Shown: positions 27,071 to 39,406 of the stretch, piece by piece | Layout: each line of letters starts with the position of its first letter | How positions within the stretch are numbered: the first letter of the stretch is position 1 | Assembly: GCA_012520095.1 (NCBI GenBank) | Contig: JAAYOV010000027.1 | Coordinates: 1 to 64,000, forward strand | Direction of reading: 5' to 3' | Length of the DNA: 64,000 nt | From: Tissierellia bacterium | GTDB lineage: Bacteria > Bacillota > Clostridia > Peptostreptococcales > Acidaminobacteraceae | Notes under the pieces: generated by a model | The model's database searches: none | Seen by the model: the letters and a program-made list of their open reading frames with translations, nothing else | What the model was told of the DNA's origin: nothing | Program-made: the position numbers and the translations under genes

Positions 27071-27786
27071 TGAGGAGTTTCGGCATCACCAATATTGGAC
27101 GCTATCGTCTTAAAAATGACGATTCTTTCTTCTGTTCAGATGGAAGGAAGGGTCTTTATATTGTGGCAGACGGAATGGGTGGCTATCAAGGAGGGGAAAC
27201 GGCAAGCAAGATTGCGGTTTCCACAGCGGTAGAACTTTTGCGAGGCGCAGAATCTCTTGATGAACAATTAAGTGAAAAATTGACTCTGGAGATTCAAAAG
27301 AGAATGCGTGACGCGATCGACCGCAATGAGAACTTCAAAGATATGGGTACCACATTTTTATGTGCTCTCATTGTCGAAGGGACTGTCTACCTAATGCATA
27401 TCGGTGATTCACGAGCTTATCTTGTTCGCGGAGGCATCCTCTATCAGATGACGGAGGATCATACCCTTGTCAATATTCTCTTCAGAAACGGAGTCATCAA
27501 TAGAGAACAGGCACGGGTTCACCCTAAGCGCAATGTGCTTGTTAAAGCTCTTAGCGCCTACGAGCGAGTGAAGGGAGATCTCAAAAAGTTTCAGATGGGG
27601 GATGAGGATACACTTTTGCTCTGTACGGATGGATTGACCGATCAGCTCACCAATGGTGAGATCCTGGAAATTCTTCTTTTAGATCAGCCCAGTGATGTGA
27701 TCGCCGCCAAACTCGTAGACACGGCACTCAAAAGCGGTGCGAAAGATAATATTGCGGTAGTAGTGGTAAAGGGAAGTTATGATTAA
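27070..27786 (+). CDS. prpC: PP2C-family Ser/Thr phosphatase PrpC/Stp
   Basis: A manganese-dependent phosphatase that opposes the PASTA kinase encoded next to it. The 238 residues carry the metal-binding motifs 'VADGMGGYQGGE' (about 33-44), 'MHIGDSRAYL' (about 112-121), 'CTDGLTD' (about 187) and 'KDNIAVVVV' (about 225). ATG 27070 overlaps the rsmB stop, and its own stop lies within the prkC start region (8-nt overlap), so kinase and phosphatase are translated together. Confidence 0.94.
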   Translation: MRSFGITNIGRYRLKNDDSFFCSDGRKGLYIVADGMGGYQGGETASKIAVSTAVELLRGAESLDEQLSEKLTLEIQKRMRDAIDRNENFKDMGTTFLCALIVEGTVYLMHIGDSRAYLVRGGILYQMTEDHTLVNILFRNGVINREQARVHPKRNVLVKALSAYERVKGDLKKFQMGDEDTLLLCTDGLTDQLTNGEILEILLLDQPSDVIAAKLVDTALKSGAKDNIAVVVVKGSYD

Positions 27787-29677
27787 TTCAATTTTGCAGG
27801 ATCGTTATAAAATATTAAAAGAGCTCGGAAACGGCGGTATGGCGACGGTATATTTAGCATACTGCTCTCAGCTCAAAAGAAATGTAGCGATCAAAAAACT
27901 GAAAAAACAGGAAAATGTGCGTTCAGAAGCTCTGCTTGATGAGGCAGCGGCGATCGCACAGCTTAATCACAAAAATATCGTTCAAGTCTATGATTCATTT
28001 GATGAAGACGGTGAGCGCTATATTGTCATGGAATATGTCGAGGGCCCCACATTAAAAGAATTTGTCCACTCTCTTGCTCAACCTTTAAGGGAAAGAGAGA
28101 TCATCGCCATTGCTATTAAGCTCGCCGGCGCCCTGCAGCATGCTCATTCCAACGGCATCATTCACCGTGATGTCAAGCCCGACAATATTTTGCTGACAAG
28201 TGAATATGAGCCTAAATTGACTGATTTTGGCATTGCAAAAGTGACTTCTGATGCGACCCTCGTTAAAAATCAGGAGGTGATGGGATCCCTTCGCTATGCT
28301 GCTCCTGAACAGCTTCAGGGTGTTCATATGGATTCTCGCAGCGATGTTTTCTCTCTCGGAGTTGTTCTATATGAGTTGGCTACCGGTGAAGTTCCTTTTA
28401 GTCAGGACTCTCCCGTCACCGCTGCGTATCGAAAACTGAAAGAACCACTCCCCCCTGTGAGAAAAATGAACCCAGCCATCAGTTCTCGACTTGAACATAT
28501 TATTATGCGGGCGACTTCGATAGAACCTACGAAGCGCTATTCCAGCATGCTTGCTATGCGGCGCGATCTCGAAAGTTTATATAGGTTGATGAGCTCGGAT
28601 CGACCGGTCTCCTACCGCTCCCAGGATCCTGCGATTCCACTTGAACCTGCGTATCAGCCGCCGCGCTCTTCCGGGGTCATCTTCTATGTAGTTATGGGTG
28701 TATTGCTTGCCGCGATAACGGCTTTAGCCATTTTTATCCCTCAATTCCAGCAACGCACCAGTCAACCATTGACTCCTGCTCCATATATTGTCGGCATGCC
28801 TTACGAAGACGCGATGGCTGTTTTAAACGATAGCCATTTAAAAGCGGCTGTCATACAAGCGCGTTTTTCATCTGAATTTCCCAAAGGATACGTCATCGAC
28901 CAAAGCGTGGCAAAAGATACGATGATGCGTCCCGGTTCTCGTGTCGAGTTGATTGTCAGTAAGGGAAATGAAATGGTCGTCGTTCCGGATTTACTCCTGC
29001 TCACGAAGGAGCAGGCCATGAACGTGCTTGAGGAATCCTCCCTTTTAATCGGGGAAGTGAAAGAGGATTTTGATCCGGAAATTCCAAAAGATCGAATCAT
29101 CTTTCAATCGATTCCCGCAGAGACGAAAGTATCTCCTGACACGGTCATTGACATCGTTCTGAGCAAGGGAGAAGAGCCGGTCAAATTGATCGTCCCCGAT
29201 GTCGTGGGCAAAGAGATCAATGAAGCCACGCAAATGCTCAATGAAGCCAACATTCCGATCCGCGGAATCAATCATGAATATTCGGATACCGTACCTGAAC
29301 TGTGCATTATTCGACAATCTCTTCCACCGACTCAGGAAGTGCCTGACGGATCAGGCATATACCTTGTCGTCAGCAGAGGCAAAGAGGCACAAGAAGAACC
29401 GCCGAAACCACCGGAGGAACCGCAAGAGCCGACAGAACCAACGCCAACTACGACGACGTTGACGTTTACTTTTACACCCACAGCCGAAACAAACGACAGT
29501 TATTACCTTGCCATTCTTGCCTATGACAAAGATGGAAATGAGGCGGAAGAGCCGACGTACGCCAGGACACATGAAAAGAGTGCAGGAGAATTCAGCGTCA
29601 CTCTTGAAGTGTTAAATGGGTACACGTATCGCTTGTTTGTCGACGGAGTGGCAATAAAGGATTATAGTACACAGTGA
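27779..29677 (+). CDS. prkC: PASTA-domain Ser/Thr protein kinase PrkC/Stk
   Basis: A membrane receptor kinase that senses peptidoglycan fragments or lipid II and controls wall synthesis and growth. The cytosolic kinase (about 1-270) has the G-loop 'LGNGGMATVYLA', lysine in 'VAIKKL', 'HRDVKPDNIL' and 'TDFGIAK'. One membrane helix is at about 299-320. Three PASTA repeats follow (about 330-397, 398-467, 468-536). A Pro/Glu/Thr-rich linker then leads to an extra beta-rich domain of about 80 residues at the C-terminus, which is not part of the minimal family design. It overlaps rsgA by 4 nt. Confidence 0.94.
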   Translation: MINSILQDRYKILKELGNGGMATVYLAYCSQLKRNVAIKKLKKQENVRSEALLDEAAAIAQLNHKNIVQVYDSFDEDGERYIVMEYVEGPTLKEFVHSLAQPLREREIIAIAIKLAGALQHAHSNGIIHRDVKPDNILLTSEYEPKLTDFGIAKVTSDATLVKNQEVMGSLRYAAPEQLQGVHMDSRSDVFSLGVVLYELATGEVPFSQDSPVTAAYRKLKEPLPPVRKMNPAISSRLEHIIMRATSIEPTKRYSSMLAMRRDLESLYRLMSSDRPVSYRSQDPAIPLEPAYQPPRSSGVIFYVVMGVLLAAITALAIFIPQFQQRTSQPLTPAPYIVGMPYEDAMAVLNDSHLKAAVIQARFSSEFPKGYVIDQSVAKDTMMRPGSRVELIVSKGNEMVVVPDLLLLTKEQAMNVLEESSLLIGEVKEDFDPEIPKDRIIFQSIPAETKVSPDTVIDIVLSKGEEPVKLIVPDVVGKEINEATQMLNEANIPIRGINHEYSDTVPELCIIRQSLPPTQEVPDGSGIYLVVSRGKEAQEEPPKPPEEPQEPTEPTPTTTTLTFTFTPTAETNDSYYLAILAYDKDGNEAEEPTYARTHEKSAGEFSVTLEVLNGYTYRLFVDGVAIKDYSTQ

Positions 29678-36646: not shown

Positions 36647-37116
36647 ACGGCATTTATCCGGGTAGTTTTGACCCCCCTACAAAAGGACATATGGATATCA
36701 TTGAGCGCAGCGCTGCGCTCTGCAAGCATCTTTATATTGCAGTCTTGATCAACAGCTCGAAAAAATCTTTATTCACCATTCCGGAGAGAGTGGAATTGCT
36801 TAAAAAGATTACGGCTCATCTAGATAATGTTGAGATTATTACATTCGACGGACTTCTTGTTGATCTTTTCAACAAGTATGATATCGATGCCATTATTAAA
36901 GGCTTGCGCGCTGTGTCCGACTATGAATATGAAATACAGATGGCGCAGATTAACAGACAGTTTGAAAGAAGAGCGGAAACGCTTTTTATGATGACGAACC
37001 CTCGCTATTCTTATTTGAGCAGCAGTATTGTCAAAGAATTCCACCGGTACGGAGCGGATATATCACCTTATGTGCCTCTGCCTGTATTGGAAGCAATGAA
37101 AGAAAAGAAGGAGTGA
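36643..37116 (+). CDS. coaD: Phosphopantetheine adenylyltransferase
   Basis: Makes dephospho-CoA from 4'-phosphopantetheine and ATP. The 157 residues carry the nucleotidyltransferase motif as 'YPGSFDPPTKGHMDII' (standard GSFDPxTxGH), 'KGLRAVSDYEYE' near 87 and 'YSYLSSSIVKE' near 123. ATG 36643 overlaps rsmD. Its stop is 2 nt before the start of the coiled-coil gene. Confidence 0.95.
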   Translation: MNGIYPGSFDPPTKGHMDIIERSAALCKHLYIAVLINSSKKSLFTIPERVELLKKITAHLDNVEIITFDGLLVDLFNKYDIDAIIKGLRAVSDYEYEIQMAQINRQFERRAETLFMMTNPRYSYLSSSIVKEFHRYGADISPYVPLPVLEAMKEKKE

Positions 37117-37118
37117 TT

Positions 37119-37604
37119 ATGAAAGTATTGGAACTGTTGGATGATTTTCAACGCAAGGTTGAAGTGACCACCAATTTTCCCATGACGAAAAAAGTACTTC
37201 TGGAAAGAGACGAGATAGAATCTCTGATTTCAAATGTCCAGGCCTTTCTTCCCGATGAGATGAAACATGCGAAGTGGATAAAAGAGGAGCGCGAGAAGAT
37301 TCTCGTAGAAGCCAATGCAGAAGCGGAGGAGATTGTCCAAGAAGCAAAGAAAAAGGAACGGATGATTATTGCGGAAGCACAAGCTCAGTTCGAAACCATG
37401 GTCAACGAAAGTGAGATCATGCGTGAAGCCGAAGAGAGAGCAGCAGAGCTTCTGAATCAGGCTCGCCAGGAAGCAGCCGGCATCCGAATGAGTTCCTATC
37501 ATTACTCTGAAGATATGTTGCTCGATCTCCAGGAAGTCCTTGATAAGAAGATGCGCGATGTCAATGAAGACCTGCGTTCTCTCCAGGAATTTCTGCAGAG
37601 CTGA
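37119..37604 (+). CDS. Coiled-coil protein downstream of coaD
   Basis: A 161-residue, highly charged protein, mostly alpha-helical, with a long coiled coil from about 45 to 125 ('EANAEAEEIVQEAKKKER'-type heptads). It resembles the stalk of F0 subunit b but lacks its membrane helix. Similar genes follow coaD in many Clostridia and carry vague labels such as ATPase. ATG 37119 has AAGGAG 5 nt upstream. No enzymatic motif is present; a structural or DivIVA-like scaffolding role is a guess. Confidence 0.75.
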   Translation: MKVLELLDDFQRKVEVTTNFPMTKKVLLERDEIESLISNVQAFLPDEMKHAKWIKEEREKILVEANAEAEEIVQEAKKKERMIIAEAQAQFETMVNESEIMREAEERAAELLNQARQEAAGIRMSSYHYSEDMLLDLQEVLDKKMRDVNEDLRSLQEFLQS

Positions 37605-37786: not shown

Positions 37787-39268
37787 TCAATTCATACTGT
37801 TAATTTGTAATTCGTCGACATAGAGAGACGAAGCCGTAGTGGGAAACGATATTTTTATCGAATCGATGAGCGGTGCGTCTATTTCCAGCGTGACTTCGTT
37901 CCACTGCGCGTCGAGAACAAAAATGTTTTCTTCCTTTAGGACGACTCGAGTTCCGCTTCTATAACCTTCAAATCGCAGCATTTCCTGTCTATCGGAGTCG
38001 GATCGGACAAAAAAATGAAGATTGATACTGCCCTGCAAGTAGATATCCTCCAGATGGGCGACGGAGTTCGAGTCAAAATGAAGAGATTTGGGACCCGATT
38101 TCGAAATTCCTTCCATGATATCTGCTTCTGACCAGACATAATTTTCAATCTCATCGACAGCGGCGATATGAGGAATAAATTCAAAAGTCTGTGAGTATGG
38201 AGCGCTCCAATTGCCTTGGGAGTCCTTTACCTGCAAGCTTGCTCGAAAAGTGCCCGGTTCTGTGGTTGCAAAATTTAGATTATCGCTTTCGCCTTGATAG
38301 ACGAGTTCGTTATTTTTATAAAGCGTCCATTTTTTTGCATCTAGGAATACGCCGGTGGGAGCAAAGGATGTATCCAGAAGGATAAACCCCTTATCTCTAC
38401 GTTCAATAGTAAAAGAAGCAAAAATACCCTCTGTCTCACGAAATGAATAACTCTTATATAAAGCAAATAGAGCACTCGAAAGAATGAAGATAAAAGCAAT
38501 GGCAAGGACGACAAATTTGATATTGACATACCCCCATCCACTTGTGACCACCTTTTTTTCTTCCAGTTGAAATTTCTTCTCCACAAAGAGATCATGGATA
38601 TAGATATCCTTGACATCTTCTACAATCTGTTCGACGTTTTCAATCGTCGCATTGTTGGGCAGGTTTCGAAAGTAGTTCTTGAAATTAAAAAGTGAGACGT
38701 CTTTTCCGATGATCTCCAACATGACTCGACTGATATTTCTACGCATCTGAGTAGGGGAGGGAAGGAAATCAAAGTCTACGTCTTCGACGATTAAAATACC
38801 TCTATGTTTGAGTTCGCCATGAACCATATAGAAGTTTTCAGGGCGCATGAGATTAAGTTGCATAAATAGGGGCAGAGGCTGAAATTCACGGATGATATTG
38901 AGATAGGAGTTGATGAGTTCAACTTTTTCGGAGCTGCTGCCTTCAAGCTGGAGGAGCGGTACTCCCTCTAAAACAGGAGAAATAAAAACGGCTCGATCCT
39001 CTTCCAGATAGAAGTCAGATAGATTCGGCAAATGCATGCGCGTCATCGACAAAAGCTCAGGCGAAAGCTGGCGTGTAAAATAGATTTCATTTTTGAAGTA
39101 ATGACGGTCGATCTTAGAGATTCTCTGATACTCACCTGATAAATTGACGCTCTTTTGTCTGCGCATAAATGCCGCTTGCCTCCTTTCAACATATTTGTAG
39201 TATACTTGAACTCCACTGAAATGTGAAGCATCCACCTTCTTTTCAAGATCGTAAAATGTTGAAATCAC
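37787..39268 (-). CDS. Membrane protein with pseudokinase-like cytosolic domain and extracellular beta-sandwich domains
   Basis: No named family is recognised. The 493 residues divide into three parts. A cytosolic region (1-250) contains 'HGELKHRGILIVEDVDFDF' (150-168), which recalls the HxDLKxxN and DFG elements of protein kinases but lacks the catalytic Asp and the DFG glycine. One membrane helix follows (252-271). An outer region has a PKD-like fold (about 283-363, with 'GNWSAPYSQ') and a C-terminal jelly-roll-like segment (about 385-491). The start is taken as GTG 39268; there is no good SD, so it is uncertain. The design resembles an inactive receptor kinase that could sense wall material. 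Confidence 0.7.
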   Translation of the reverse strand: MISTFYDLEKKVDASHFSGVQVYYKYVERRQAAFMRRQKSVNLSGEYQRISKIDRHYFKNEIYFTRQLSPELLSMTRMHLPNLSDFYLEEDRAVFISPVLEGVPLLQLEGSSSEKVELINSYLNIIREFQPLPLFMQLNLMRPENFYMVHGELKHRGILIVEDVDFDFLPSPTQMRRNISRVMLEIIGKDVSLFNFKNYFRNLPNNATIENVEQIVEDVKDIYIHDLFVEKKFQLEEKKVVTSGWGYVNIKFVVLAIAFIFILSSALFALYKSYSFRETEGIFASFTIERRDKGFILLDTSFAPTGVFLDAKKWTLYKNNELVYQGESDNLNFATTEPGTFRASLQVKDSQGNWSAPYSQTFEFIPHIAAVDEIENYVWSEADIMEGISKSGPKSLHFDSNSVAHLEDIYLQGSINLHFFVRSDSDRQEMLRFEGYRSGTRVVLKEENIFVLDAQWNEVTLEIDAPLIDSIKISFPTTASSLYVDELQINSMN

Positions 39269-39335
39269 AACCGAAATTGATATATATGAACGGTAAACAA
39301 ATGAATCATCTTTATAATGAAGAGTTTTAAAGTTT

Positions 39336-39349
39336 TACCCTCAAGGGTA
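39336..39349. promoter_or_regulatory. Inverted repeat at the CDF transporter promoter
   Basis: TACCCT-CA-AGGGTA, a perfect 6-bp dyad, ends 13 bp before the TATAAT of the CDF gene, covering the -35 position. This is the usual location of metal-responsive (MerR- or ArsR-type) operators, but no regulator gene adjoins it. Confidence 0.4.
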
Positions 39350-39362
39350 GATGGTATTGTAC

Positions 39363-39368
39363 TATAAT
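39363..39368 (+). promoter_or_regulatory. -10 element for the CDF transporter gene
   Basis: A consensus TATAAT lies about 40 bp before ATG 39407. No good -35 is present at 17 bp (CTCAAG), which would fit an activator-dependent promoter. Confidence 0.5.
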
Positions 39369-39406
39369 CTTTCCTGTTTCGACGAAGAATTGAGGCAAAT
39401 GAGTAT

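Follow-up and report, generated by a model that had tools for sequence, protein, structure and literature searches.

The gene and its surroundings

The window, a stretch of 64,000 nucleotides from the Tissierellia bacterium contig JAAYOV010000027.1, carries an open frame at 37787-39268 (-) that was confirmed as real. The initial annotation was right about this frame and wrong about its start: no ribosome-binding site was found before GTG 39268. Since an AGGAGG (39179-39184) stands in front of ATG 39166 and homologues L003, L005 and L007 start at the corresponding position, ATG 39166 is almost certainly the true start, giving a product of 459 aa. Comparison with a copy from the same genus (91% identical over 207 aa) gave a pN of 0.06 against a pS of 0.91, so the gene is under purifying selection and functional. 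It is a single copy in this genome. The gene and the domains of its product are as follows.

37787..39166 (-): whole gene, 459 aa, with a predicted cytosolic pseudokinase, a membrane helix, a PKD domain and a CBM-like sandwich (ATG and AGGAGG, homologue starts, pN/pS about 0.07)
38582..39154 (-): kinase-fold domain, residues 5-195 (AlphaFold2, Foldseek, VIA, profile match to SaPknB)
38459..38527 (-): single membrane helix, about residues 214-236 (Kyte-Doolittle, AlphaFold2)
38168..38419 (-): PKD/Y_Y_Y-like Ig domain, residues 250-333 (Pfam models, AlphaFold2 strands)
37790..38164 (-): CBM35/CBM6-like beta sandwich, residues 335-459 (VIA, Foldseek)

Convergent genes follow downstream, namely fakA-recG-rsmD-coaD and a gene of 163 aa, and a FieF-like transporter gene lies upstream and divergent. 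The 163-aa gene (37113-37604), beside coaD, encodes an ATP-synthase-b-like coiled-coil protein, and its place is kept in the close clade (cluster c12).

Kinase fold of the inner domain

The proposal that the N-terminal region is kinase-like had been made to hinge on its predicted structure, and the model came out kinase-like. AlphaFold2 gave a pLDDT of 83 for the full-length protein, and a pLDDT of 92.4 and a pTM of 0.87 for residues 1-195 with 65 family sequences. The model of the N-domain shows an N-lobe beta sheet with alphaC, a hinge, alphaE and a beta7-beta8 hairpin. The best Foldseek match in the PDB was the pseudokinase TraF of pIP501 (8cba, E=8.5e-5, TM 0.45 by both lengths, 208 columns), and below it almost every row among the matches listed was a protein kinase. 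VIA-align superposed the N-domain on S. aureus PknB (SaPknB, 4eqm) with a Z of 12.3 over 183 residues at 3.9 A, and on other kinases with a Z of up to 12.6.

An HMM of 65 family domains, compared with PDB sequences, matched SaPknB from the Gly-loop to beta7 at E=7.1e-6. This match is sequence evidence, separate from any structure model, and it agrees with the predicted fold. Pfam Pkinase did not appear in the 25 families that the 65 domains matched most frequently, and a Pfam scan of the window's own N-domain found no kinase match and no PF00069. Because the Pkinase model fails to match, the family is a divergent kinase-fold family. The family profile gave a weak 40.7% against nine PrkC kinase domains in hhalign, a less powerful comparison than that of the 65-domain HMM with PDB sequences. 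A chance origin of the pseudokinase signal was ruled out by conservation, profile E-values and pN/pS.

Kinases, EssB and LPS-kinase folds had been put forward for comparison with this domain, and of these the kinases were recovered. One aminoglycoside kinase (4fev) stood at rank 44 among the VIA and Foldseek matches listed, and the structure matches listed held no entries of the LPS-kinase type. The best 50 Foldseek and VIA matches included no EssB/YukC structures, which excludes nothing.

Catalytic motifs

We next compared the catalytic positions, with residue columns counted in the register of the SaPknB alignment. In that HMM alignment VAIKAIF stands opposite the family's 'viiNiik', and IKPQNILID opposite 'LidesQivik'. 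The sites in the window's protein are listed below.

39089..39094 (-): K25-N26, the beta3 'VAIK' site, with N26 at the Lys position (PknB alignment, family columns)
38834..38845 (-): R108-P109-E110-N111, catalytic-loop remnant at the HRDxKPxN position (PknB alignment, family columns)
38798..38821 (-): HGELKHRG, residues 116-123, beta7-beta8 hairpin ending at the DFG site (AlphaFold2 strands, PknB alignment)
38765..38782 (-): DVDFDF, residues 129-134, past the DFG/metal site (alignment of relatives, AlphaFold2)

HGELKHRG and DVDFDF are both present where the initial annotation had seen them, as a catalytic loop and a metal-binding motif, and neither reading held. The PknB alignment and the model strands place the catalytic loop at about residues 102-111 (MQLNLMRPEN). 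HGELKHRG is instead the beta7-beta8 hairpin, with strands at 112-115 and 118-121, and H121-R122-G123 form the DFG site at the end of beta8. DVDFDF lies beyond the metal site, and at its position the nearest relatives carry YVFDYP, IVFERP or SEFDRP; it is neither a metal-binding motif nor the remnant of one.

The claim that key catalytic residues are lost was borne out across the family. The VAIK Lys, HRD Asp and DFG Asp are kept by 0/65 domains at the aligned columns: the Lys column holds N in 42 domains, T in 15, S in 5 and H in 3, no HRD Asp occurs at the aligned columns of the 65 domains, and no Asp is among the residues listed for the DFG Asp column. K25 adjoins the empty Lys column in the window's clade. 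Since all three positions are empty in 65/65 domains, the loss is ancient and family-wide. The catalytic Asn column (position 111) is Q in 51 domains and N in 14, so that an amide stands there in 65/65; Gln mostly replaces the third Gly of the Gly-loop (Q14 in 57/65), and with N26 (42/65) these make up a set of conserved amides at pocket positions. A decay of similar style is given for EssB, which is listed with LDMR and TRG in PMC12599244. Fold and residue columns together leave us highly confident that this is a kinase fold with lost catalytic residues.

Membrane helix and outer domains

The single membrane helix and the PKD-like and jelly-roll-like outer domains described in the initial annotation are all supported. 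The Kyte-Doolittle maximum is 2.84 at residues 218-236, and AlphaFold2 places a helix at 216-244. Behind it, the window's protein matches Y_Y_Y at E=0.002, and PKD_4 matches 18/24 aligned relatives (best E=1.6e-7). VIA superposed the C-terminal sandwich on CBM35 2w46_A (Z 12.2, 119 residues, 2.4 A) and on 4qb2 (Z 12.1), as well as on CBM6 structures, while Foldseek matches reached E-values of 1e-9, mainly to CBM4, CBM22 and CBM35 structures. The modelled fold of the sandwich suggests glycan binding, the CBM likeness being one of fold only. We infer a topology with the kinase fold inside and the PKD and CBM-like domains outside.

The PKD-type segment recurs elsewhere. Many genomes of the host's family carry frames of about 550 aa, such as L095:1308-3009 in G014, that encode membrane-anchored proteins with RCC1-like repeats, and the PKD-type segment of these proteins (GNWSxxY) is the same as in the outer domain of the pseudokinase.

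Distribution and exchange of outer modules

The full-length profile matches 39/41 genomes of the host's family and the pseudokinase part is found in 38/41; in G012, PKD-like stretches alone match the full-length profile. Beyond the host's family, the order has the pseudokinase in families f2, f4, f5, f11 and f12, and the class has it in f31, f26 and others. Matches are rare elsewhere in the phylum sample; most of them are weak and span a part of the domain, so they may be ordinary kinases. The close relatives come from MAGs that are called Tissierellia, Clostridia or Clostridiales bacterium. Neither Pfam nor NCBIfam has a model for the family.

Of the 78 open frames that match, 38 combine the inner domain with PKD plus CBM, 21 with PKD, 6 with CBM and 7 with LysM, the last count taking in L092 by its Pfam LysM match (E=2e-14). 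The minimum number of architecture changes on a tree of 73 domains is 11, compared with 31 after shuffling; one of the 11 stems from a homologue truncated by the end of its contig, and the 'PKD' label of L074, which is cut by a contig end, is an artefact. Within the close clade, identity is 57-63% in the inner domain, 30-42% in PKD and 24-33% in CBM. A conserved inner domain with an exchanged outer part would be the pattern expected of a receptor or an anchor.

G017 and G061 carry the PKD type plus a LysM-like type. The second paralogues in these genomes (L076 in G017, L075 in G061) are short pseudokinases with a LysM-like C-terminus, beside the PKD-type copy. A very long branch (2.78) leads to the window's own clade (L001-L007), whose genomes measure only 1.4-2.1 Mb. 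Compared with its relatives, this clade has shed several residues of the N-lobe around the Gly-loop.

Candidate partners

No partner gene was found to be consistently adjacent across families. A yhaO-yhaN-like (SbcD/SbcC-type) pair is divergent from the pseudokinase gene in most other host-family genomes examined and in one of f5, and in G002, of the same genus, yhaO adjoins it. The pair is missing from this genome, where 39167-39406 separates the pseudokinase from the FieF-like gene, and the only related gene found elsewhere in it is an SbcD-like paralogue (23% identical). We rejected yhaO-yhaN as functional partners: the pair is common in the host's family and present in f5, yet missing at the window's locus. 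In f11, f2 and f4 the neighbour genes differ.

Another candidate lies further off.

27779..29677 (+): PASTA kinase PrkC, possible partner (three PASTA domains; this genome's only Pkinase-family match; 8 kb from the pseudokinase)

This genome also encodes one FHA protein. Linkage to prkC is confined to the close clade (the window and G036). G030, which is 98% complete, has the pseudokinase and no FHA match, and G047 has the pseudokinase with no match to Pkinase or to FHA. Since its sister G058 has a kinase, the assembly of G047 may have a gap. Co-occurrence in these two genomes gives no support for an obligate FHA or PrkC partnership.

Proposed role

We lean towards reading the protein as a single-pass, non-catalytic receptor or scaffold for envelope glycan. 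The outer PKD and CBM-like domains would hold or read a glycan of the envelope, either a wall polymer or a surface polysaccharide. The compact inner kinase fold would act as a protein-docking platform, with no transfer of phosphate, and its conformation or dimer state would tell a conserved partner, in the cytosol or the membrane, that ligand is engaged. Here the glycan as ligand, and signalling or scaffolding through a partner, are what we infer; the outer domain could also be a plain anchor without signalling. As the pocket keeps the conserved amides Q14, N26 and N/Q111, a nucleotide or other small molecule may bind the inner domain. More speculatively, one-pass glycan receptors might signal without catalysis throughout Clostridia, with interchangeable PKD, CBM and LysM modules outside shifting the docking state of the dead kinase inside, as a second layer of envelope sensing beside the PASTA kinase.

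An adaptor in the PrkC pathway, phosphorylated by PrkC and recruiting an FHA protein or a wall enzyme as MviN does in M. tuberculosis, would fit the single Pkinase-family match 8 kb away and the single FHA protein of this genome. The nearest bacterial relative by fold and sequence is also a PASTA kinase, and MviN offers a precedent (PMC12599244). We nevertheless think this role unlikely, given that prkC linkage does not extend beyond the close clade and that G030 and, assembly gap permitting, G047 have the pseudokinase without these partners. Similarly improbable is a structural hub of an envelope machine, in which the pseudokinase would build up a membrane complex that the outer domain simply anchors to the wall. 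EssB/YukC works in this way (PMC9600267), and the T4SS protein TraF, our best Foldseek match, has the same plan and length. Against this, neighbours vary between families with no conserved machine, and the outer domain of TraF is helical (PMC13037476). Across 148 genomes of the order there was no T7SS EssB save one sub-threshold match, and no T7SSb genes stand beside the pseudokinase, whose neighbours are coaD, recG, fakA and the FieF-like cation transporter. Neither the window's protein nor 24 relatives match PF10140 (YukC), and the same holds for G000; hhalign against one EssB sequence gave 0.3%, a profile test that is weak with a single available sequence. We rejected EssB membership because of the YukC model, the gene context and the outer fold.

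Repurposing of the kinase fold for other chemistry or as a nucleotide sensor has precedents in SelO and SidJ (PMC12599244), and the conserved pocket amides would suit it. We regard it as very improbable all the same: an acidic metal ligand is missing from the DFG position in every member, there is no Gly-rich loop, and the relatives YukC and MviN do not bind ATP (PMC9600267, PMC12599244).

Comparison with known systems

The initial annotation had likened the design to PrkC and to EssB-type proteins while noting that it fits neither, and both remarks agree with our results: the protein is EssB/TraF-like inside and laid out like a PASTA kinase, yet it has no PASTA domains and matches neither the Pkinase nor the YukC model, and the order has no T7SS EssB beyond the one sub-threshold match. 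With PrkC and S. aureus PknB (Stk1) it shares an inner kinase fold, one membrane helix and outer wall-facing repeats. It differs from them in having no catalytic residues, a lost Gly-loop, a shorter C-lobe and no match to Pfam Pkinase.

RsgI-type anti-sigma glycan sensors of Clostridia likewise have one membrane helix and swappable carbohydrate-binding outer modules, but their cytosolic part is a short sigma-binding domain and not a kinase fold.

The likeness to TraF of pIP501 and EssB/YukC lies in a compact kinase fold of about 195 residues with a mutated catalytic triad, followed by a membrane helix and an outer domain; TraF also shares the plan of five strands plus helices and the length of 195 aa. 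Unlike these proteins, the window's protein has no T7SS or T4SS context, and its family's outer part is PKD, CBM or LysM instead of helical. EssB/YukC and TraF are non-catalytic interaction hubs that act through such domains (PMC9600267, PMC13037476, PMC12599244). The pseudokinase domain of MviN (ActPs3), which PknB regulates, is also a dead kinase in an envelope protein with an outer domain of glycan-binding type. MviN itself is actinobacterial and fused to a multi-pass MurJ-type flippase, whereas our protein has a single membrane helix, and no close sequence relation was detected. None of the seven families in PMC12599244 has PKD, CBM or LysM outer domains in the parts covered.

The literature searched, with most subscription papers outside reach, did not describe this family. 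Few known bacterial transmembrane pseudokinases have a role that has been worked out, and these belong mainly to secretion machines (EssB, TraF) or to the MurJ-like MviN. The family described here is chromosomal; it is near-universal in a single bacterial family and also occurs in several more of the class. Because the inner dead kinase is kept and the outer glycan-binding part exchanged, the question of whether a dead kinase can be the signalling half of a bacterial receptor becomes directly testable. Transmembrane pseudokinases as such are already known; the papers searched have no account of this family, its interchangeable glycan-binding modules or its context outside secretion.
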